DNA of 64,000 nt from contig LLCB01000072.1 of the NCBI GenBank assembly GCA_001414345.1, positions 186,001 through 250,000 on the forward strand. The letters run 5' to 3'. The stretch comes from Hymenoscyphus infarciens (taxonomy: Eukaryota > Ascomycota > Leotiomycetes > Helotiales > Helotiaceae). The notes under the pieces were generated by a model. It was not told where the DNA came from and ran no database searches. It saw nothing but the letters and a program-made list of their open reading frames with translations. This document shows, one piece after another, positions 1,842 to 36,419 of the stretch. The translations under genes and the position numbers were made by a program. Numbering within the stretch: the first letter of the stretch is position 1; every line of letters starts with the position of its first letter.

Positions 1842-2204
1842 TATAACGGCACGAAATATACACTATAGGAGAAGAGGTATATAGAAGTACGTTTAAGACT
1901 AAATAACGTAAGTAGATACTAGACTCTAATATAGAAGAAAAGGAAAAACTATTCTTCTTCTATACTAAGTATAAACATCTATATATAAGAGGTCGAAGAC
2001 TACTAAGTTCTAATAAAAATAATAACTAAGTCCTTTCTAATATAGCTACTAAAATAATAAGAGCTTTAAAGCTAAATATATAAGACCTTAAAGCAAAACA
2101 TATAATATTCGATTCTTACTCTCTTCAGCCTCTTCTATCTTATAAGTCGTAGGAGTATTAGCAGTTTTACAAATACCGACAATTTAGAATAGCGTACTAT
2201 TATA
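1842..2204 (-). repeat. Element A left LTR (3' LTR in element orientation)
   Basis: A 363-base repeat matching 9338-9700 along its whole length apart from transition differences. It starts TATAACGGCACG and ends CGTACTATTATA, RIP-altered forms of the family termini. Confidence 0.92.
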
Positions 2205-2217
2205 TCCTCTCTTCTTT
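2205..2217 (-). other. Polypurine tract of element A
   Basis: On the minus strand this reads AAAGAAGAGAGGA directly before the left LTR. The same tract sits at the same place in copies B (43056), C (51882) and, slightly changed, D (60443). In LTR retrotransposons this tract primes plus-strand cDNA, so it fixes the direction of the element. Confidence 0.8.
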
Positions 2218-3690
2218 AAAAAGACTCGTCCCGAGTCTTTAGTTAGTAATTAGCATAGTATTAGATTAACTAGAGCATTATTTACATAATTGTTATAAAG
2301 AATATAACTTATCTGCTATTATAGTGTCTAGTAGTTGAGGTAGGGTCGGTAGCTAGTAGTATTATTGTTTTAAGAGATCGTTCTTTATTTACTATTATAT
2401 ATTATATAATAATAGATGTAAACAGAAGAGAGGCTGATTATTAGCTATTAGGTAGAAAGCGGTACACTATTATAGAGTTATCGTGTTCTTACTATTATTA
2501 TATATTATAATAGTAATTATTAAGTAATAAATAATAATTATAAAGTAATAGCTATTATTATATATTATAATAGTAATTATTAAGTAATAAATAATAATTA
2601 TAAAGTAATAGCTATTATTATAAGTAGTATATTAGTAGGCGACTTTTCTCTAATTCTAACTTCTCTTCTTCTTTTCTTTTTATCTAAAATAATATATAGT
2701 AAGAATACCTTCTAATTAGATATATCTTTATATATTAACTTTTATTCTAGAACATATATATATATTATATATATATATAAAAGTAAGTCTTTCTCTCCTT
2801 TATTAGGCCTAGTTTAGAGCTAATCTAATATAGTAAAATACCTCTCTTATATCTTCCTAGTACGCTTCTAGCTATCTACCGAGTCTACTACGTTTAGTGC
2901 TTTTAAGTAAAATCTTAGAATAGAGATTACGTATACGCTTTTAAGAAGCTAAAGTTAAAGAAGTATAAGTACTATATAGAGTAGAATACTATATATATCC
3001 TAGTAAGTTTAATCTTAAATATATACTAAATCCGTTCTAACTTAGATAGTTACTATAGTTTATAGAGAAGAAGTTTAATAAGCTTAAGCTTAAAGAGAAG
3101 AAGAGAGCTATTAAGAAGGCTACTAAGGCCTTAGATAAGGTATTAGTCGTTACTAGTATAAAGGTACTAAAGAATAGTTTAAAGATATAGTTCGCTCTCT
3201 TAGAGAAGACTTAAGCGCTTTATACTAAAGTTATTATAAGTACTCCTTATTTATTAAAGAGGTTTTAGTTACTAATATTTAATAGTTCTTATACTATACT
3301 ATAAAGAGTAGGACCTCTATCTAAACCTAGGTTTAAGTCCTCTTTAAGGCCTACTTAAAGAGTTTATAAGCGTCCTCTTCTAAGCTAGTTATAGGAGATT
3401 ACTAAGGTAAGAAGTATACTTATAAGAAGGAGGTAAAAGAAGAGCTAGTTTAAGCTTCTTATACTTAAGAGAGTAAGAAGAAGAATAATAAGTTAAAGAA
3501 AGGAGAGGCTATAGCTTAGAAAGAGTTAGTAAGCCCTGTTTTAGTAGTAACTTAGTCTTAGTTCTTTACTTTATTAATTTTAAATATTCTTACTAGTTAG
3601 TGTTTTATCTTAGGTTTTTATTATAAGTTCCTTATTAAGAGTAACTAGAATTAGAGAGTATTAATAGAGTTTTATAAATTAACTCTTTTA
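2218..3690. other. Unassigned ~1.4 kb segment between the chromodomain and the polypurine tract
   Basis: Gypsy elements usually place the 3' LTR close to the end of pol. Here about 1.4 kb intervenes, and the same segment is kept in B and C. On the plus strand (antisense to pol), around 3060-3480, one frame is long and lysine/leucine rich, for example KKATKALDKVLVVTS. It is interrupted only by TAA/TAG codons, as in the RIP-mutated pol frame. I do not recognise a domain. It may be an antisense or extra gene of the element, or non-coding sequence that looks open because RIP removes TGA codons less than it creates TAA/TAG. Confidence 0.45.
2494..2630. repeat. 60-base tandem duplication inside element A
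   Basis: A ~60-base AT-only unit beginning TAAGTAATAAATAATAATTA occurs at 2521 and again at 2581. Copies B, C and D have a single unit at the matching place (43,377; 52,201; 60,761). The duplication is therefore private to A. Confidence 0.85.
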
Positions 3691-6600
3691 CTTAATTCTT
3701 ATCTAATTCCTATATATTAATCTATTTAGAGAGGAGTTAGAGTAGTCTTAGCTATTCTAGATATTTAGTATAAAAGTCTTTTAAATAATATAATAAACCT
3801 TAAAAATTATCTATAAGATACTAAGTAGGATTTAAATTATATCTAATCTATCTTACCTAGTATTATAGCTATCTTTTAAAAAGTCTACTACTAAGTATTT
3901 CTTAAACCTCTTATTCTTATATACCTTAAATAATATCTAGTAGAGGCTTTAGAGCCTCTTACTCTAGTAAAGGGGTATTTAGATCCTTTAAAAGTATATT
4001 AGAGGCAAAAACATTATAAATTAATAATCTTTTTAGAAGTTTTAGCTTATAGAAGTATCTTATATAATCTAGTATTTTAAAAGGTCTTATCTACTATTTA
4101 ATAAGCTTTTAGCTAGAATAATTTATCTTAAGATTCTTAGTAAATAAGTAGACTTTATCTCTAATATCTTAGTTAATAGCTCTTTAGTATTAATTTATAC
4201 TATTCTCTATTCTTTTCTAAGCCTTACCTATATTATTTTTTACTATCCTCTAAGTAGAGTATATATATTAAGCTACTTTTACTACCTTATCATAGTTAAG
4301 ACATTCTTAAGAAATAGACGTCTTTAGTATATTCTAGTTCTATAAAGTTCTTAGGTTAAGTCTAAACTTAAGCTAATAAGAGGTTATACTAATAGATAAG
4401 TATAAAAGTATTATTTATACTCTATTTATTAAAGAGATTAATTCGCTTTAGTTATCTTAGTAGTAGTTTATAAAAGGCCTTAGTCTTTAATTAATATATT
4501 AGTTTATTATCTCTATCTATCTATTTATTTATTTATAGTAGGTAGTACTAAGCTTAAGCTTAATACTAATTATTTAATAAAATTTAGTCTAAAATAATAA
4601 TATAAATTAAGGTTCTTAATTAGATATAATCGATTTAAGATAGTAACTAAAATAGTAAATCTATTAAATAAAGAGTTTAGCTAAGCCTTTAGCGTCTATA
4701 GTTAAGTAGTAGAGTATTAATACTAAATCCTTTCTAAGTTAGTTAATAAATACTAGTATAGTGTTAAATCTATGTTTATCTTTTAAGAATAATTTAAAAT
4801 CTATATATAAATATTATATAAGATAGTTAAGTACTAGAAGAGGGTAAAGAAAGCCTTACTACTTAGTCTATTAAGGATAAGAGTATCTATAAGTTTAATA
4901 ATTTACTATATATCTCTTATAGTCTAAACCTAGTCTAACCTAGTAGTAGTATTATACTAATAACTAGTATATCTTTTTTATACTTAGGTAAGTACTAGAT
5001 ACTTAGTCGTAGACTTCTTAGATTAGCTTTATATATAGTTTAGTATTCCTTTAAACGTAAAGTCGATTCTTAAAGAGGAGTAAATTATCTAGTAAAATAG
5101 AGTATCTATTTAGAAGTTTATAACATTCTTTTTAAAAGGAGCGTAGATTATCTTCTTTTAACTTCTAAATTATATTTAAACTTAACTCTAGAATAATATC
5201 TATTATATTAAAAGATATAGACTATTCTTATAAAAAGATCTAAGTAAGTTTAGTATTAATTCAAAAGTCTAACTAATTAAGTTCTAAGAGAGTATATAAA
5301 TAGCTATCTAATTTAGCTTAATTATAGGTTTTTAGGTCTTATTTATATTAGGTTAATATATCTACTTTTTAATTACTCTTCTTAGACGTAAATTAGATCT
5401 AAAAGTTAAAGTCTAATAAAAACTCTATCTATTAGACTTATTTAGCTATAAGTAGCTTAGTTATTATAAAGTATTCTAATAATCTATAATTTAAATATAT
5501 ATTAATATACTTCTAATATAATATAAGTTTAGAGTACTATTTCTTAAAAGCTTCTATAATAGTAGATAGTTCTTTATTATAGATCTCCTAGTTTAATTTA
5601 TAGCTAACTAAGACGTATAAGTAGAACCTTATAGAGTACTAAAGGCTATTATATTATTATAAGAAAACACTTATTATTACTTCTTCTAAAGAGTCTATTT
5701 CTACCTTTATATTATAATTAAAGTTAAAGTAGTATAAGGTTTATATAGTAAGTAGCTTAGTCTTTAACGTTTTAAAGACTTTATTATATTTAGATATTTA
5801 TAGAAAAGGCTTTAAAAAGTATATTATTATAGTTAAAGGTTTAGCAATTTTAATATAACCTTTAATAAATTATTTATAAAATCCTATAAACTCTAGGTAA
5901 GACTTTACACCTATTATAGTAGTAGGTTAGACCTAGTTTTATAAAGGTTCTACTTTTTTAAGATTAACTTTAAGTCTCTTTATAGTTAAGATAAATCCTA
6001 AGTATTTAACTCTAGTAATACTAAATTCGCTTTTCTTAATATCTACTTAGAGTCCTACTTCTTAAAGCTAACTTAAAACCTTTTTAACTTATACTTTATA
6101 TTCTTTAATAGTATCTAAATAAATTAAAATATTATCTAAGTAAGTAATATAAAAGTTATTTAGATAATTAATTAAGACGTTATTTATATAATATTAATAG
6201 ATAGCAAGGCTATTATAGAGTCTAAAAGAAAGAACCTTATATTTATATATACTATATCTTATTCTAAACGTAGTTATCTCTTCTAAGGTAGAGTCTATCT
6301 AGATATAATAGAAAGCTTATCTTATATCTAACTTAGTAAAGATTTTAGCTATTCTTATCTTTAAAAGGAGCTTATTAATTTAAGAGAGTAAGTAGAGATT
6401 ATTTTAGGTTAGAGTATTAAGCTTTTTATAATTAATATAGAACTATAGCTTATTACTATTAGCTTTTTTAATAAAGAGTACTAAAGAGGTAAAAGAGCTA
6501 TTACTATTAATAATAAACCCTTTGTCTAGGTTTTTTATAAGATACTCCTTTATAGCTTTAAGCTCTATAATTAACTATTAATATAGAGGCGAAAAGAAGT

Positions 6601-9000
6601 TAAGAAGTAGTTTATTTAAAGTAATCTTATAGTTATATTTATAATAAGAAGAGAGCTTATTAGAAGCTACTTTTAAAAACACGTCTTTATAGGAAGAATA
6701 ATATTTTAAGAGTTAAGCTTATATTAGGGCTCTTATATTATCGTTATCTTAAAGAGAGGCTAACTTTTTATTAATAATCTAATCTAGCTTATAGATACTA
6801 GTTATATAAAATTCTAAGTTAGATTATTTTATATTAAAGTATATAGTATTAGTGCTTATTTTACTAATAAAAGAGTATAAAGTCTAGTTTTTTAAAACTA
6901 TACTAGTAGTTTAAAAAGACTTTAGACTAGAGTCAGAGGTTGAAATTTTAAAAAGAGTTATTATTATAAATAAGAGTAATAGCTCGACTATATTTATAAG
7001 TCTACTCTTTCTACGTCTTTCTTATTACTAGATAGTATACTCTCTTTAATTTATATTTAACTAGTAATTTAAAAAGGGTTTCTAGTTCTAGCTAGAAAGT
7101 AGAAGTAAGATCTTCTTACTAAAGTAGAGAGTTAGAGAGTAATTAGCTAGCTAAGTAATCTAGCTTTTTAAAAGATTAAGAAGGACTTTAAAATAGTTTA
7201 ACTACTTATTACTAATAATTAGGTCTTATTATCTAAGGTCTAAGATAATAAAAGAGTAGTTAAGAATATAATATTTATTAATATTTAAATATAGTTATAT
7301 AAACTATATTACTTAGCTCTTAGTACTATTATTATATCTATAAATAGATATTATATATAGTAATCTCTAAATCTTTAAACCTATTATCTTAGATAAGTAT
7401 AAGGCTAGAGGCTAATTTAGAAATAAGTATCTATTTACTTCTATATCTACTAAAGCTTATAATTTAATACTATATTCTTATATACTAAGAGTAGTATTTA
7501 TAAGAAACTGTTTTCTTCTTATAAGCTTAGAAAGATCGAGTCTAGTTAAGTTATAATTATATAAGCTTAGGAAGGAATTTTTACCTAGGCCTCTTTATTT
7601 TTCTTCTAACTTAGCTTAGAGTTAGAGTACTTTTTAAAAAGTTATTCTTCTTTAGATTAATTATTTATTTTATTAATACTAAGAAGATTAGAGTAATTAG
7701 GTTTAAAATACCTAAGCTTATTATAATAGTAATACTTTATACTAATAAGGACTTAGTCTATTAATATAGTCTTTGATTTTTTACTAGTAGAAAATAGTCT
7801 AAGAGTTTATAAAATCTTCTAAGATATAGAATTAAGTTTATATAAGAGTAAAGAGGGTTTTAGAGTTAAGTTAAATAAGGATTAAAAAGTACTTATCTTT
7901 TTAAATAATAAGATTATACTAATTAGTTTAGCTATAATACTAGTTATAAATAACTTTATATTTTAATACTTCTTCTTATCTAAAGCTAAAAGATATACTA
8001 CTATCTTATTAAAATTATAATTCTAATCTCTCTTAGCTAAAGTAGAGCTACTTTAAAGCTATAGTATAATCTTATCTTATATCTAGTAGAATCTTTCTAA
8101 CTCTAGTATTCTCTTAAGTATAGCTATATTTAAGAAGTATACTCTAAAATCTAAAAAAGTTTCTTTTATATAACTCTTTCTACCTATTTATAAAGCTTAA
8201 AATTTATTCTAAGCATTCTTCTTCTTATAACTAGTTAGAAAGTAGGAATTAAGGAGTTTAATTATATCTTATTAATCTTTAAAGGCTATATTACTTATAT
8301 CTAACTTATATTAGAGCTCTAAGTAGTTCTTAGTAAGTTTTATAATCGTCTCTTAAATAAGAGCTTTATAAGTTTTAAGTATATAGTAATAGTTAGTATT
8401 TACTTAGAGTCTATTATATATAGATATCTTCTATTACTTATAAGTAGGTAAAATACTATTATTTAAAGGTTTAATTTTCTTTATAATTTTATTTTTAGTA
8501 GGTTATTAGGTTTTTAGTAAGGTTTTAGCTTATAATTATAAAGTAGATTATTATAAAAGAAGAATATTAAGAGTTGAGTTTTATATTTAAAGATAGTCTA
8601 GTATAATAGAAGAGTATAAAGAAGGAGTCTAATTATTTCTTAATAAGTATTTACTAATCTATTATACTAAATCTACTAATTAAGCGATTTAGTTATCTTA
8701 TTATTAAATTCTTTTATCTTTTTCTTAGTCCTTAGCCTCTATAGCCTAAATCACTTCTTATATCTTATCTATATTAGAGAAGTCTTAGTTATCTCTTTAG
8801 CTTCTAAGAGTAACCCCTTTACCTTTATTACTCTAAGACTTTTTATTCTTTAGTAAGTAGTATTAAGTTAAAGACTTTTCTATAAGTACTTAACTTTATT
8901 CTTTAAAAGAAAGCTCTACGCTTTAAAGCAAAGCTTAAGAGAGACCTAGAGTTACTTCTAAGTCTAATATATTAAATGTTAAAAAAGAGAGAGTAAAAGA
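3690..9000 (-). pseudogene. RIP-degraded gag-pol of element A
   Basis: Read on the minus strand, the remnants come in order. A CCHC zinc knuckle lies at about 7695-7740, with its ligand positions now read as Tyr (frame KYYYYNKLRYFKPNY). A protease-RT linker ending in a DLII...YFKVL-like stretch follows at about 7190-7260. The reverse transcriptase catalytic box is at 6131-6142, reading YLDN instead of YLDD and followed by an ILIY box. Integrase is at about 4420-4700, with remnants of SDRGPQFI (near 4602-4630) and of LSTAYHPQT. A KVYLFTKNL segment is at about 4130-4170. A chromodomain remnant (EILSSRLFKR and following) is at about 3730-3925. The in-frame TAA/TAG codons fit C-to-T change of CAA/CAG. 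The 5' limit of gag is approximate. Confidence 0.88.
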
Positions 9001-9337
9001 GGTAATTTAGAAGTTTTTTAGATAACTGTTTATATTATTAACTATCTAAATTATATATAGTAATCCTTATACTAAGAGGGTTATTAGGATTCTTAAGAAT
9101 ACTTAGTATATTCTAATCTCTTAATATATAAGATATAATTTTTACTAGCTATTTATATAGATATTAAACCCTAGTATTACTAGCTATTTAAGAGATCTCT
9201 AGAATCTTAGCTATTTAAGAATATATTATTATAGTCTAATTCTAGGCTAAATTAAAATTAAAATAAAAAGAGTAATAATAAGCTTAAAAGAGATATTATA
9301 AAAGCTATTATTAGTAAAGAAGAGTTTTTCCTTTTTA

Positions 9338-9700
9338 TATAATAGTATGAAATATATACTATAGGAGAAAAGGTATATAGGAGTATATTTAAGACTAAAT
9401 AACGTAAGTAGATACTAGGCTCTAATATAGAAGAAAAGGAAAAACTATTCTTCTTTTATACTAAGTATAAACATCTATATATAAGAGGTTAGAGACTACT
9501 AAGTCTTAATAAGAATAATAACCGAGTCCTTTCTAATATAGCTACTAAAATAATAAGAGCTTTAAAGCTAAACATATAAGACTTTAAAGCGAAATATATA
9601 ATATCTAATCCTTACTCTCTTTAGCCTCTTCTATCTTATAAGTCGTAGAAGTATTAGTAGTTTTATAAATACCGACAATTCAAGATAGCGTGCTATTACA
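9338..9700 (-). repeat. Element A right LTR (5' LTR in element orientation)
   Basis: A 363-base LTR, same length as its partner at 1842-2204. It ends CGTGCTATTACA, the least mutated terminus in the window, and is followed by the target duplication TAGCT at 9701-9705. Confidence 0.92.
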
Positions 9701-9705
9701 TAGCT

Positions 9706-11335
9706 TTATAGTTTTTAAGTACTTTAAGTAGCTATAGAGGTTATATATTCTCTTTTAAGAAATAGTTAGTACTCTTAGTATTTAGAAATAGCCTTATATT
9801 ATACGATTACTTAATTACTCTCTTCTTTTTTTCGCTAATCCTCTACTTTTATAAAATCGCTTCTTTTAAAAGAATAAGTAATAAAATTAGACGTTTTAGG
9901 CGAAGTTTACTACTTCGCGTACTTATACTTATACGCGTGTCTATAGATAAGCTCTTAAATTCCTTACCTTTGAAGTAACTTAGAAGAATCTATCTACTTT
10001 AAAGAGAGAGAAGAGGAAGAGAGAGTAGAGAGTAAAAGAAAGTATAAATTTTAAAATTTAAAAAAATAAGTCTTATTTTAAAATACCTTAAAAAAGTCTA
10101 AGCTTTATTAATTATAAGCTCTTTATTCTTATAGAATATTATTACTTTTTAATACTAATCTCTATCTAAAACTTCCTTATAAACCTCTTAATAAGCGCCC
10201 TGATTCAGCTAGATTCTATATAGTATAGAATATTAATAATAGAGAGAGCGCTTTGCTTTCGTAGAGTTAGAGCTTTTATTACTAAATCAACGATTTAAGA
10301 CTTTTTAAAGATTTTTTAGTTCTCGCTTTTAATTCGCGAATCTTTAAATTAATTTAATATACAAATCTCGTTTTAAAATATAAATCTATTTAGTAAAAAG
10401 CCTCTATTTATAAATCGAATTATTTAAATTAAGCTTTAGTATTATATTCGTAAATCTCTTATATAAAAAAGCTTAATTCGTAAATACTATTCTAGAGAGT
10501 TATTTACGAATCGAATCTTTACTTTATATTTTATATAAATTCTAATACTAATACTATCTCTTTAGTTATTCTTATACTCTACGTGATTTAGTAGAACGCG
10601 GTTCTAATCTTATATTTCTAGCTTTAACGCGACTAAATATTTAAATTATTATCTTATTCTTTAAACTCTAATAATAATTATTATTATTATTATAGAAATT
10701 GAATAATAATTTACCTATAATCTTATATTTAAAAACCTCTACTAAAAAAATCTTTATTTTAGTATAAGTTAGCCTATAATACGAGTATATAAGCTAAGTT
10801 TCCTCTACTTACTTCTACTACTTCTACTACTTCTACTACCTCTTTTATACTCTTTTATTCTTCTTTTTAATTAATATACCTCCTCTAGAATAGCGTAAGG
10901 CTAATACTACTCCTAGTATAAAAAAGTCTACTAAAAAAGTCCTTAAAAAGAAGGCTTCTCAAGTACGCTCTATAAACGTGTTTCTTACTTTAATTTAGAT
11001 TTTAATATCTTAGCACTCCTAAACTGGTTTAGCAGCATCGTAGTTCGAAGCTACCTAGATTTTAGTCTAAAACTATCTTAAATAAGAGTAGTTTTAAACC
11101 AGACTACTGAACGCGTCTATACGTGAGGTATAAGGATAACTAAAGAGATAGTATATCTTTCTTAATTAGTATAATAACGTTATACTATTCTTAATCGTAG
11201 ATATATTATAGTTACTAGCGTAAGAGTAGCTATATTAATAGCTCTCTATTTTAAGAATAACTTTATTAAAAAGCTTTAATATATTTAAAGCTTGGCAGAG
11301 AGAAGTATCTTACATAACAAAGTCAAGTAAGAAAC
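9706..11335. repeat. RIP-mutated flank right of element A with a possible relic ORF
   Basis: AT-rich sequence with no clean gene. A 9-base TTCTACTAC microsatellite lies at about 10810-10840. From ~10876 to ~11300 one plus-strand frame is fairly open if TAA/TAG are read as mutated CAA/CAG; it includes a basic run KKSTKKVLKKKASQVRS. I do not recognise it. Composition returns to normal near 11310-11335. Confidence 0.5.
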
Positions 11336-11798: not shown

Positions 11799-13103
11799 TT
11801 ACATAATGATAGCGGGGACATCCACATTAACCTTGATGCTCTTATGAGGAAGGATGCTCCCACCGTTGACATAAATCTCATCACCAATCGTCACATCGTC
11901 ACCCAAAACACTGACATTTTCCAAGCGTGCCCACTTTCCAATAGTCGAGTTCCAGCCTACGATGGTGCTCTTGACCCACGCGTGGTCCTTGACTTTGGAT
12001 CCCTCGAGGAGAACGCATCGTTGGAGACGAACTCCATCTCCTACAATAACATTTGGACCGATTGTGACGTTGGGGCCGATTCTGCAGTTTTTGCCAATCT
12101 TGGCAGAGGGGTCGATGAGGACGTTACCTCCGTGGACGTAGGATGTGTTGATGGGTGTGAGGAGCTTGGAGCCCTTCTTGGTGAGTGAGGAGAGGTAGAG
12201 ACATGTTCCAGTGAGGAAATCTTTTGGTTGTCCAACATCCATCCAGAATCCCTCCAAATCGAACGAGTGTAATTGTCCGTCGGCGCAAATCGCGGGGAAG
12301 GTTTCTTGCTCAATGGATGTGGGACGTAAATCGATGCGCTTGAGAACGCTAGGGTTTAGAATGTAGATACCGGCATTGATACGGTTTCCGACGAACTCGA
12401 CTGGCTTCTCGACGAATCGGTCAATGCGCGAGTTGTGTCCTGGCTTGTGTACGACGACACCATATTTCGATGGTTCCTCGACCTTTGTGACTACAATTGT
12501 ACCTTCTTGACCGTGAGCCTTGTGGAAAGCAGCCAAATCAGCAAAAGGATATTCGCAGATGACGTCCGAGTTGAGAACAAAGAATGGATCATCGCCTTTT
12601 CCGAGAATCTTTTCTGCGAGTTTGAGAGGACCGGCGGTACCTAGAGGTTCGGATTCGATTGAGAATGTGATTTTGACGTTGAATTTCTCTTCATACTACC
12701 ATGCCCCACTTTGTCAGCCTTGTAAATATTGGTAGGAGTTTCTGTGCTGGCATACCTCTTCTAGATATTTTTCCATCACCTCTGGTCGGTAGTTGACCGC
12801 CAGAACGATATCTGTAACTCCGGCCTCTGCCAATGCCTCGACTTGGTGCAAAATCATGCGCTTGTTTCCAAACTCGACCAATGGCTTGGGAAGAGTGAGG
12901 GTCTGTCGATATGTCAGTCATTGTCGATATTGGAGGGTCTAGAGAATCTGCGGTCCAGGGTTCGAGGTTCTGGGGCTTCGAGCGGGGTTTGAACGTACGA
13001 GAGGTCGTAGACGGGTGCCGAAGCCACCGACGAGAATGAGGGCTGTTTTCCATGTCAGCAAGGGAGAATATGATCTCTCAATCGGGAGCAGCCTACCCTT
13101 CAT
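11799..13103 (-). CDS. mpg1: Mannose-1-phosphate guanylyltransferase (GDP-mannose pyrophosphorylase)
   Basis: Makes GDP-mannose from GTP and mannose-1-phosphate in the cytosol, feeding protein glycosylation, GPI anchors and mannan. Four exons on the minus strand: 13097-13103 (only ATGAAGG), 12999-13042, 12756-12902 and 11799-12695. Together they give exactly 364 aa, the usual length of this enzyme in fungi. The N-terminus reads [20 protein letters not shown], the nucleotide-binding signature. FVEKP, a second nucleotidyltransferase landmark, follows in the last exon, then NAGIYILNP. From about residue 250 hexapeptide repeats ([17 protein letters not shown]) form the left-handed beta helix, and it ends VDVPAIIM. 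All introns are GT-AG and in phase. The antisense open frame over exon 4 is a shadow. Orthologues are PSA1/SRB1 in yeast and mpg1 in filamentous fungi. Confidence 0.97.
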
Positions 13104-28505: not shown

Positions 28506-29567
<1,062 letters not shown>

Positions 29568-33220: not shown

Positions 33221-36200
33221 TCAATTCTTTCCCGCCCATTCTCTGTACCATTCTAGGCAATCGGCGTTGGCGACACTAGCACTGGTTTGAACATTTATTC
33301 CACAAAGGATTTGTTTGACTGCGACCTCGACCCTATTTTCTGGTTAGCAAACCCCAAGCAAGGGACAAGCAAAGAAAGACGGAAAACTCACTTCTTCCCA
33401 TTCCCCGTAACCGGAATCTCAAAACAAACATCGATAACCCCCGGCACATGCCTAGCACTCAACTCCCTCCTAACAACCCCCCTAATCTCCGCCCTCAACC
33501 CCTCATCCAAATTCACACCCTCACACATCTTCAAAAACAACACCACAACCTCATCATCATCACCCTCTCTCCTCCTCCCAATACAAAGTCCCTCGTCGAC
33601 TTTGCCCCCGAAAAATTTAAGAAGCAAATTATAAATCTCCGCACTTCCAAACCTCACACCACTAGGTTTCAGAATCCCATCTGAACGGCCTAACATGTAA
33701 ATTCCTCCAGTTTGGGGGTTGAAACGTACGAAATCGCCGTGGTGCCAGAGACCGGGAAAAGTTGTGAAGTAGGAGGTGCGGTATTTTTCGGGGCCCGAGG
33801 GACCGTAGAAGGTTGTTGGTTGGGAGGGGAAGGGCTTTGTGCAGACTAGGTCGCCGGGTTGGGAGGTGGTGATTATTTCCCCTGAGGGGGTGACTGCTGC
33901 GATGGCCATTCCCAGGCCTTTTTGTTGTATTTCGCCGATGTAGACGGGGGTGAGGGGACAGGGAGCGCCGAAGAGGGAGATTATGTCTGTACCGCCTGTT
34001 ATGGATGCTGTTTGGACTTGTGGTCCAAATGCTGTGGAGATGTACTTGAACTTGGGGTTGGAGTTAGCATTTTTGTTTTTAAACGGAGGGGGGGCTTCGT
34101 AGATTTGTCGAGTGGAATGAATATTGGGACTTTTAACTTACTGTGCTAGGAGCAAGTGGAGAACCAGTTGAGTAAATAGCTCTAAGAGAAGCAAGACTCA
34201 ACCCCTCGTTCTTTGGAAAAACATTCCTCTGTTCCAAGACACTCAGATATTTCGCAGAAGTACCGAATTGCTTGATTTGCAGTTCATCGATCAATTTTGG
34301 CATTGTTAGGGGTCCATGAGGATAGAAGGGACTTCCATCGTAGAGGATTAAAGTTGCCCCACAGGAAAGACCCGAAACGAGCCAGTGCCACATCATCCAT
34401 GTTGTGGTGGTGAAATAGAAGAGCCTGTCTCTTGGGAGAATATCGCCGTGGATGATATGTTCTTTCTTGTGTTGCACCAAGGTTCCACCCGCTGAGTGGA
34501 CGATACACTTTGGCTTGCCTGTAGTTCCCGAACTATGTGATGTCAGCCACGAGTCAAAAAGTGGTATGTGTGAAAACTTACCTATAGAGAATATATACTG
34601 GATGACTAGCGGGAAACCGTTCAAATTTCATTTCCTTGCTGGTAACTCTAACATTTTTATTCTGGTAAGCTATGAGCAACATATCGTATGGCAAACTTCG
34701 CCCCGGAACAGCACGCTTGTCTCCCATAGAATGACTTTTGCAGGTGAGAGGCTTAGTGCATGGTTGTCCATCCTTTAAAACGCCGCATTGTCTCTCGATA
34801 TCTACTGGGCCACTGAAAAGGGGTTCGCTGTTGAAGAATTAATGAATGTTGCTAAGAAAAAAGAGTGATATGCTCACCACTTGAGGAAGTCCTCGTAAAC
34901 AAAAGCTCTACCCGCTGGAGGGTTCAAGGTGTTTATTTGCGAGAGGATTTCGGTTCCTGGAATTGCTTCGAAGACAACAAGTGCTTTCAACTTTGGAAGT
35001 GAGGCTACTATTTCTCGAACTTTAGTAGTTGTCTCGTAAGTTTTGCCATTGTAAAGTGAGGCGTTGTCGGCGAAGAGAATCACGGGCTCGATTTGTTCTA
35101 GTCTATGTGTGGTTAGTTAGCACTGGGAAAAAAAGAAGAAGAAAAGACAGTAAAGAGTTCTTCCAAAGATGAGTAGTTCATTTGGTTGGCTCGATGATTC
35201 GAGCCAGAGCAGAGACATCCAACAAAAGAGGTAAAAGGAAATACTTACCGATCAAGTACTGCTCCCACTCCAGTATCTGGACTGACTGCCGTCCAAATTG
35301 CTCCAACGGCGGTCGCAGCAAGCATTGCAACGATAGCATTTGTATTATGGCCTAAAGCACCATGAGTACCAGACAAAAATTAAAATCCACTCAAGCAATC
35401 CATACCTATGAACCCGGCGACTCGATCGCCTTTCTTTACACCTTGATGCAAGAGTGCGAAATTGCACTCGGCAACCTTTTCCCTCAATTGACTCCAAGTT
35501 ACCTCGGAGCGTGTCGTTTCAGTGGCAGCTATGATGGCAATATCATCATCTTTGATTTCTCCTGCTGGGTGCAGGGGGTAAAGCAAATTTTCGGCAAAGT
35601 TGAGTTTGATGTCTGGGAAGAAATCTGGTCTGGGGTACATTGGAGCATTTTGAGGTAGAATCTGGGTGAGGAATTAGCGAATGATAAGTCATGAAGGTCA
35701 AATGAAACATTAGAGAATCCTCGAACGTGAGACGAAATAGTATTGCGACGGGGTGGTGGTTGCCAATAGCGAGTATCTCAACTGAACCTAGGGAATACGG
35801 GGCAAAGCATTCAACGAAATACAAGTAAGAGCCCTGAGCTTTGCTCTGCGTACAGCCCACTCCCATTGTATCGTGGTTTTCGTGACGACTCACAATATTG
35901 TCCGAGAACGTTTAGAAGAATGGAGAATCAGAGTGTCTCCTTCTTCTAAACCTTCTCAGAAAATACAAGTAATTATCCTGGACTCGTATAATGAAGTAAA
36001 GGAGGTGTACTCGGAGCAAAGCTGTCGTTTCTTACCACAAGCAGAAAATATTGACCCCTCCCAATCACGAGCAGCAAAGCAGTTGCAACAGCAAGACCAG
36101 GGCCAAAAAAGTCCAAGAATTCTCAAATTACCTGATCAAACAAGCTGTCCTTCGCTTTCGTCCTTGGAAATACATGATTCGCATCTCCGTTAGCTACCAA

Positions 36201-36419
36201 AGAGCCATCCAAAGCGGAAGCTTGCAAACCAGTGAAAATACAAGTCTCCCTCCAAAACTCGGCAATATTCTCAATTGACCAATTATAGAGGTCTTGATAG
36301 TCTCTCAGGGTAACATTGTACTTCTTTTCCACCCCGAGCTTGAAGAGCCACATCTGAGTGGTCTCCGGGGAGGGGTGAGTCCATAGCTCCAAAGGGAGAG
36401 TGGGAGCGGAGTCTCCCAT
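33221..36419 (-). CDS. AACS: Acetoacetyl-CoA synthetase with an embedded SCA7 zinc domain, 759 aa
   Basis: Activates acetoacetate to acetoacetyl-CoA with ATP (ANL superfamily), feeding sterol and lipid synthesis. Eight exons: 36132-36419, 35406-35661, 35249-35351, 34878-35102, 34582-34827, 34142-34532, 33392-34050, 33221-33332; every junction is GT-AG and in frame. AACS hallmarks: N-terminal [26 protein letters not shown], the [13 protein letters not shown] loop (372-381, split by an intron), [72 protein letters not shown] and the C-terminal [13 protein letters not shown] with the conserved lysine. Exon 5 adds about 60 residues between FLK and [12 protein letters not shown]; they form a complete SCA7 domain (297-349). 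The protein is longer than ordinary AACS by about that much. No stop or frameshift is seen. Confidence 0.95.
34639..34640 (-). other. Candidate alternative 3' splice site that removes the SCA7 segment in frame
   Basis: On the minus strand GTTACCAG/CAAGGAAATG supplies a CAG acceptor whose first exonic base is C, as at the main acceptor (AACAG/CGAACC, exon start 34827). Using it would lengthen intron 4 from 50 to 239 bases. It would drop exactly 189 bases (63 codons) and give [12 protein letters not shown], the layout of ordinary AACS. The other nearby CAG is out of frame, and a nearby TTAG site would create a TGA codon. Confidence 0.5.
34653..34811 (-). other. SCA7 (ataxin-7/Sgf73-type) domain inside AACS exon 5
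   Basis: Residues 297-349 of the AACS protein read [12 protein letters not shown], then [18 protein letters not shown], then [20 protein letters not shown]. This is the SCA7 domain of ataxin-7 and fungal Sgf73, the SAGA deubiquitinase-module anchor. The zinc ligands Cys305, Cys314, Cys320 and His323 are all present, as is the conserved [12 protein letters not shown] helix. The frame is open on both sides and the same exon runs straight on into AACS sequence (SKEMKFERF). In Sgf73/ataxin-7 the domain binds nucleosomal histones and holds the module on SAGA. Its role in a metabolic enzyme is unknown. Confidence 0.9.

Follow-up and report, generated by a model that had tools for sequence, protein, structure and literature searches.

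The window analysed here is a 64,000-nucleotide stretch of a Hymenoscyphus infarciens contig, and it carries on its minus strand a gene for acetoacetyl-CoA synthetase (AACS) at positions 33221-36419. The spliced model has eight exons joined across GT-AG introns and encodes 759 amino acids, and it reproduces the protein and the coordinates of an initial annotation of this DNA. In the direction of transcription, the gene consists of exon 1 (36132..36419), exon 2 (35406..35661), exon 3 (35249..35351), exon 4 (34878..35102), whose last residues are YEDFLK, exon 5 (34582..34827), exon 6 (34142..34532), which begins within the ATP loop SSGTTGKPK, exon 7 (33392..34050), and exon 8 with the stop codon (33221..33332). 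These exons come from the splice model and were compared with P0001, the AACS of H. fraxineus: exon 5 by alignment and the other seven by protein match. Exon 5 bears an insert. It lies between a 50-nt intron (GTGAGC...CAACAG) and a 49-nt intron (GTAAGT...CATAG), and the phases at 34582-34827 are consistent with the claim that it is open and in frame with AACS on both sides. Introns of 470, 146, and 91 nt are among the others in the gene.

Using Pfam, we identified an AMP-binding domain (PF00501, E=3.7e-33) in the 759-residue protein; ACAS_N remained sub-threshold, with 23 bits against a cut-off of 27. P0001 is the top relative among the 120 matches listed of 7780; the search covered 5.8 billion proteins and scored 8000 candidates. 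The fusion protein is 86.6% identical to it (94 differences over 701 aligned positions). The SSGTTGKPK ATP loop and the lysines of the C-terminal GKK are catalytic motifs of AACS. In a 13-row AACS alignment, residues S373-G378, P380, K381, and K722-K723 occupy invariant columns. Judged by its sequence, the enzyme that surrounds the insert is a complete AACS with both motifs intact, and it is predicted to be active. When the 65.6-Mb assembly was searched with the P0001 protein, 10 matches were returned (12 candidates scored), of which seven are this gene and the other three are only 25-33% identical; thus no second AACS gene was found with this query.

The insert measures 159 bp or 53 codons (34653..34811, minus strand; GPVDIERQ...YQNKN) and forms residues 297-349 of the fusion protein. 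The SCA7 profile (PF08313) matches residues 296-349 with E=1.2e-22 and 79.9 bits (cut-off 23), and the Pfam search of the spliced protein gives SCA7 together with AMP-binding, as expected from the annotated SCA7 domain embedded in AACS. When the DNA of exon 5 and intron 4 was compared with the whole genome, the single match besides the locus itself was the organism's own SGF73 gene (159 bp, E=5e-47), so the SCA7 match is not due to chance. The two copies (SGF73 at G000:C742:75529-75687) agree without gaps at 137 of 159 bases (86%), and the encoded proteins at 45 of 53 residues. An SCA7 family search of the same 65.6-Mb assembly gave two matches from three candidates scored, SGF73 (C742:75508-75690) and the AACS insert. 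Whether the segment is a copied exon of the species' own Sgf73 gene had been raised as a question, and the 86% DNA identity over 159 bp answers it with yes. The description of exon 5 as SCA7 has to be narrowed: 34653-34811 is derived from Sgf73, but the remainder of the exon, one base and five codons before the insert and 23 codons and two bases after it, is not. Among proteins, the best matches of the insert are Sgf73 rows, the first ones mostly Leotiomycetes by name (120 of 203 matches listed). The matched SCA7 sequences with solved structures are 9ynu, 6tb4, 6t9i, 2kkr, and 7ktr. Horizontal transfer of the insert was considered and is not needed, the only genomic match being the own SGF73. 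Taken at the level of sequence, the locus is a real in-frame capture of one piece of an SCA7 exon by AACS.

For comparison with the family, we used 118 Sgf73 rows, which were drawn from 120 listed of 1704 matches after leaving out two that did not fit the extraction pattern. The translation of the own SGF73 exon is identical at 53/53 residues to P0121 (Amylocarpus) and P0126 (H. fraxineus), which would most simply place all eight amino-acid differences on the AACS side. Lys13-Asp14 of the insert are also found in the own Sgf73 and in 29 and 27, respectively, of the 118 listed rows. The Ile47 codon of the insert, ATA, is one base from ACA in the own SGF73 (Thr, seen in 9 of the 118). The changes at T19-K20-P21 are carried by none of these rows. 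Three cysteines and one histidine of the insert stand at the SCA7 family spacing in columns that are invariant in all 118 rows: Cys305 (insert codon 9, 34785..34787), Cys314 (codon 18, 34758..34760), Cys320 (codon 24, 34740..34742), and His323 (codon 27, 34731..34733), all on the minus strand. From their role in the SCA7 family we take them to be zinc ligands, and the insert shares them with the SCA7 domain of Sgf73/ataxin-7. The initial annotation was right that all four are present, as their alignment to invariant Sgf73 columns confirms. Its reading of their retention as a sign of selection does not hold, because eight changes among 53 residues would by chance miss any four chosen positions 51% of the time.

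With splice sites read by eye, the SCA7 exon of SGF73 starts after ...CCTAAAG, and the homology starts at the same point. In two metagenomic Sgf73 proteins (P0241, P0245), which apparently read through that intron, the sequence changes at this residue as well. At its 5′ end, the copied piece matches the SGF73 exon start to within one or two bases; at its 3′ end, it stops five codons and one base short of the exon end as read. Intron homology upstream of the insert was not seen in an alignment of 60 bases with 60 SGF73 intron bases (718 of 1000 shuffles scored as high), and exon shuffling with a flanking intron was rejected on this ground. The downstream 60 bases reached a score against SGF73, at a 10-base offset, that occurred in 26 of 1000 shuffles; we read this similarity as chance, yet it is not cleanly negative. 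A 5′ end at an exon start without its intron may reflect chance or an RNA intermediate. Repeat-induced point mutation (RIP) of the AACS copy was also considered and rejected: of the 22 changes, taken in the direction from SGF73 to AACS, 10 are C>T or G>A and 6 are the reverse, which is no clear excess.

At the site that holds the insert, P0001 has the six-residue linker VPASEG, and the other eleven aligned AACS relatives have linkers of differing sequence and length; neither the 53-residue insert nor anything comparable is present in any of the 12. P0001 is a whole enzyme like the fusion, but with VPASEG instead of the insert. Streptomyces lividans AACS (PDB 4wd1), the solved structure that best matches P0001 in both sequence and fold, is also a whole enzyme, and the insert is absent from it in the alignment. 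No AACS relative among the 120 of 7780 matches listed carries the PF08313 label, in line with the earlier statement that AACS is normally without SCA7. The predicted model of P0001 (mean pLDDT 78.9) shows a helix at 283-288, no element at 289-303, and a strand at 309-315, and its confidence falls to 72 in the block 291-300 (neighbouring blocks 92 and 91). In this model, the loop lies between the helix YEDFLK and the strand running into the ATP loop. The varying linker and the missing element agree with the earlier description of the insertion point as a short variable loop. Going by the model, a domain at this loop could be compatible with the AACS fold. The exon 5 peptide itself was predicted by AlphaFold2 with low confidence (mean pLDDT 54.6) and one helix, 46-64. 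By eye, the proline and glycine of VPASEG align with those of EPLFSG in this gene, which would fit insertion within the exon. By parsimony, we infer that the copying postdates the split from Hymenoscyphus fraxineus.

The insert and SGF73 differ at 22 bases. Of the codon changes, 13 are synonymous and 8 nonsynonymous, and neither an indel nor a stop is present. Pairwise estimates, in which the SGF73 and AACS branches are mixed, gave dN 0.072, dS 0.553, and a ratio of 0.13 by NG86, and dN 0.070, dS 0.397, and a ratio of 0.18 by YN00. Because of this mixing, we simulated a neutral insert, with equal mutations on the two branches and only synonymous changes accepted on the SGF73 branch; runs with 19-25 total differences were kept, and a row was used if it had at least 20 of them. 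At 15, 20, and 25 hits per branch, eight or fewer amino-acid changes arose with P = 0.072, 0.014, and 0.008 for kappa 2 (n=97, 359, 123) and P = 0.121, 0.036, and 0 for kappa 4 (n=124, 332, 97). Eight or fewer changes together with the absence of a stop were seen in 5.2, 1.4, and 0.8% of runs (kappa 2) and in 8.9, 1.8, and 0% (kappa 4). The share of runs with eight or fewer changes was 16-53% at omega 0.5 and 57-100% at omega 0.25. Neutral drift of the insert is disfavoured, though not excluded.

At the rate of the enzyme itself, 3.6 changes would be expected in place of the eight (P=0.029), so that the insert has changed about twice as fast as the enzyme; the expectation is half of the AACS divergence from H. 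fraxineus, which is conservative if the insert is younger than the split. Thirty-eight insert positions are invariant in the 118 listed Sgf73 rows, and five of the eight changes fall on them (V5, A19, R20, S21, K51) against 5.7 expected at random. A31, an alanine in 117 of the 118 rows, is changed as well. Three of the eight changes are conservative, and the mean BLOSUM62 score is 0.375, compared with -0.43 to -0.51 for random changes (P 0.07-0.10). The dS of 0.55 suggests that the insert has persisted for long. Taken together, we regard the insert as an open and tolerated domain under weak constraint, below the standard of Sgf73, and the case for a function as modest.

The insert is probably included in the translated AACS, since intron 4 (34828..34877, minus strand) looks ordinary at 50 nt and its acceptor, CAACAG, lies upstream of the insert. 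A branch-like TTAAT stands 12 nt before this acceptor. Splice sites were judged by a simple AG/YTRAY rule rather than by a trained splice model. The AGs listed, starting 30 bases past the exon 4 donor and running through exon 5, number 21; six are in frame without a stop, and among these a branch-like YTRAY was found in the scanned range only for 34828 and 34813. The latter (TTTTCAG, 34813..34814, minus strand), which follows intron 4 and precedes the insert, would remove five codons. Use of another AG (TTACCAG, 34639..34640, minus strand) with the intron 4 donor would splice out the whole insert and leave a 696-residue AACS, with the open frame as a remnant of its coding origin. This AG is in frame, the resulting junction sequence is close to AACS relatives, the gene has other introns well above 50 nt (those of 470, 146, and 91 nt), and by eye a CTTAC, one mismatch from YTRAY, precedes the site. 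Yet YTRAY itself is absent from the 45 bases scanned upstream of this acceptor, the nearer AGs at 34648 and 34646 break the frame, and the intron ending at 34828 is standard in both its length and the spacing of its branch-like site. The number of amino-acid changes below the neutral expectation and the proline and glycine common to VPASEG and EPLFSG also speak against removal of the insert, which we consider improbable. Far less probable again is an artefact of the assembly or of the gene model. An assembly error is unlikely because 22 of the 159 bases distinguish the copies and the reading frame continues across both junctions within one AACS gene.

AACS is a cytosolic enzyme. In the reading that we prefer, with a probability of roughly 0.6, the insert is an added domain that a working enzyme tolerates, and it has no chromatin role. 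A 53-codon SCA7 piece of SGF73 has been duplicated in frame into exon 5 of AACS, and the SGF73 copy keeps the family sequence. Splicing at 34828 would lead to translation of the domain, which would form a small surface zinc module of an AACS that is ordinary in other respects. Selection would keep the insert open and clear of the active site, but not in the form required in Sgf73, and the enzyme would continue to make acetoacetyl-CoA in the cytosol. The function of the insert is probably limited. Against this reading, change below the neutral expectation, if real, may mean a retained function, and the mildly conservative nature of the changes and the long persistence of the insert point the same way. 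Such a function might lie within the enzyme, the zinc-stabilised surface domain altering the oligomerisation, stability, or regulation of AACS. The nearness in sequence of the predicted loop to the ATP loop and the weak purifying selection would suit this role; the lack of anything comparable at the site in 12 of 12 aligned relatives counts against it, and we hold it to be quite unlikely.

It is also unlikely that AACS docks on chromatin, with SCA7 binding histones or nucleosomes and holding the enzyme there, so that its acetoacetyl-CoA would pass to GCN5-type acyltransferases for histone acetoacetylation. The retained ligands and the low number of amino-acid changes are consistent with such docking. 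SCA7 is termed a nucleosome-binding domain in excerpts of PMC8080568. According to excerpts of PMC13175576, GCN5, PCAF, and p300 can use acetoacetyl-CoA to acetoacetylate histones in vitro, and in HEK293T cells AACS increases this histone mark. The same excerpts also contain evidence against it: AACS had no significant effect on the mark in HepG2 cells, and acetoacetyl-CoA made in the cytosol is argued to reach the nucleus anyway. Moreover, the five residues invariant in Sgf73 and A31 are changed, retention of the four ligands has the 51% chance given above, and the same domain pairing occurs in no other species among the matches listed: no protein with both PF00501 and PF08313 was seen for the AACS query (120 of 7780) or the insert query (120 of 203). 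That the copied SCA7 still binds nucleosomes and makes AACS a self-targeted source of acetoacetyl-CoA for histone acetoacetylation is doubtful to a similar or slightly greater degree. If true, capture of a single exon piece would have made a metabolic enzyme into a chromatin factor.

The initial annotation had further described SCA7 as the domain that tethers the SAGA deubiquitinase (DUB) module and had proposed docking of AACS on SAGA. Neither follows from the yeast protein. Excerpts of PMC8080568 give Sgf73 residues 1-104 as the part used in the minimal DUB module, and excerpts of PMC7594455 give residues 353-437 as the link to the SAGA core; the SCA7 match in yeast Sgf73 (chain 6t9i_Q) covers chain positions 227-277. 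Both stretches lie outside the match, so SAGA docking is not implied, and we rejected it as the default. Sgf73 beyond SCA7, including the DUB-binding N-terminus and the SAGA-core stretch, is absent from AACS, where the match is limited to the 53 codons. According to excerpts of PMC8660637, the DUB anchor of the human complex is ATXN7, which is tethered by SUPT20H; a term search of that text found no mention of SCA7.

Domain insertion by partial gene duplication is a known kind of event, and this genome is the only one in which SCA7 has been observed within AACS. That a gene has taken up a small folded domain from another is mostly deduced from ancient proteins. At this locus, the donor, the recipient, and the insert-free relatives can all be compared, for one exon-sized piece in one loop and, so far, in one genome. 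The case allows a direct test of how an enzyme copes with a domain nested in it, and of whether a metabolic enzyme can be redirected by a histone-binding module that it has captured. If the domain works, ketone-body metabolism would be tied physically to chromatin; if it is idle, the gene would be a clear-cut case of an inserted domain that is tolerated and heading to decay or reuse. In the open-licence literature, we found no paper linking the SCA7 domain or ataxin-7 with AACS or acetoacetyl-CoA, and none on SCA7 domain architecture in fungi. If AACS did dock on chromatin, its functional model would be nuclear acyl-CoA synthetases such as ACSS2, in which we know of no SCA7 domain. Unlike Sgf73, the insert is the SCA7 piece alone, with five invariant positions changed, and is placed inside an enzyme. 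A metabolic enzyme is likewise paired with SCA7 in five Eurotialean proteins with a ketoacyl synthase (P0265, P0275, P0280, P0294, P0303), but there the arrangement is end-to-end, the enzyme followed by an Sgf73 body with SCA7, whereas the fusion described here is nested. A hydrolase with SCA7 (P0242) is also built end-to-end, enzyme first and then the Sgf73 body, and we read all six of these sequences as apparently merged neighbouring gene models.

When intron 1 of the acetoacetyl-CoA synthetase gene (window 35662–36131) was searched against the genome, an interspersed repeat of approximately 210 bases was identified at 35825–36035. The intron is 470 nt long, and the repeat accounts for about 210 nt of this length. 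The search returned 52 match rows, including the self match, and the non-self matches to the repeat have identities of 70–90%. At several of these genomic places, positions 167–236 of the query also match in reverse orientation, so the repeat contains an internal inverted repeat. By resemblance, the element can be described as MITE-like.

In the genome's own SGF73 gene (L001), the intron ahead of the SCA7 exon ends in CCCAAACCTAAAG, which is near-identical to CCCAAACCAAAGG, the end of the exon before it. On this reading of the splice sites, the intron is therefore flanked by a direct near-repeat, as if it had been gained by tandem duplication. In several Eurotiales, a single predicted protein combines a ketoacyl synthase with Sgf73 (P0265, P0275, P0280, P0294 and P0303). 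These are probably adjacent genes fused by annotation; their recurrence makes real read-through transcripts worth considering.

The window has a gene island at 12001–42000 (42–53% GC), between AT-rich blocks at 2001–10000 (21–25% GC) and 42001–64000 (17–28% GC). This pattern looks like that of RIP-shaped genomes. AT-rich genomes whose transposons carry RIP signals are reported for H. fraxineus and H. albidus (PMC8254937). A polyubiquitin gene was assigned at 28875–29564, based on three ubiquitin stretches in a single open frame.
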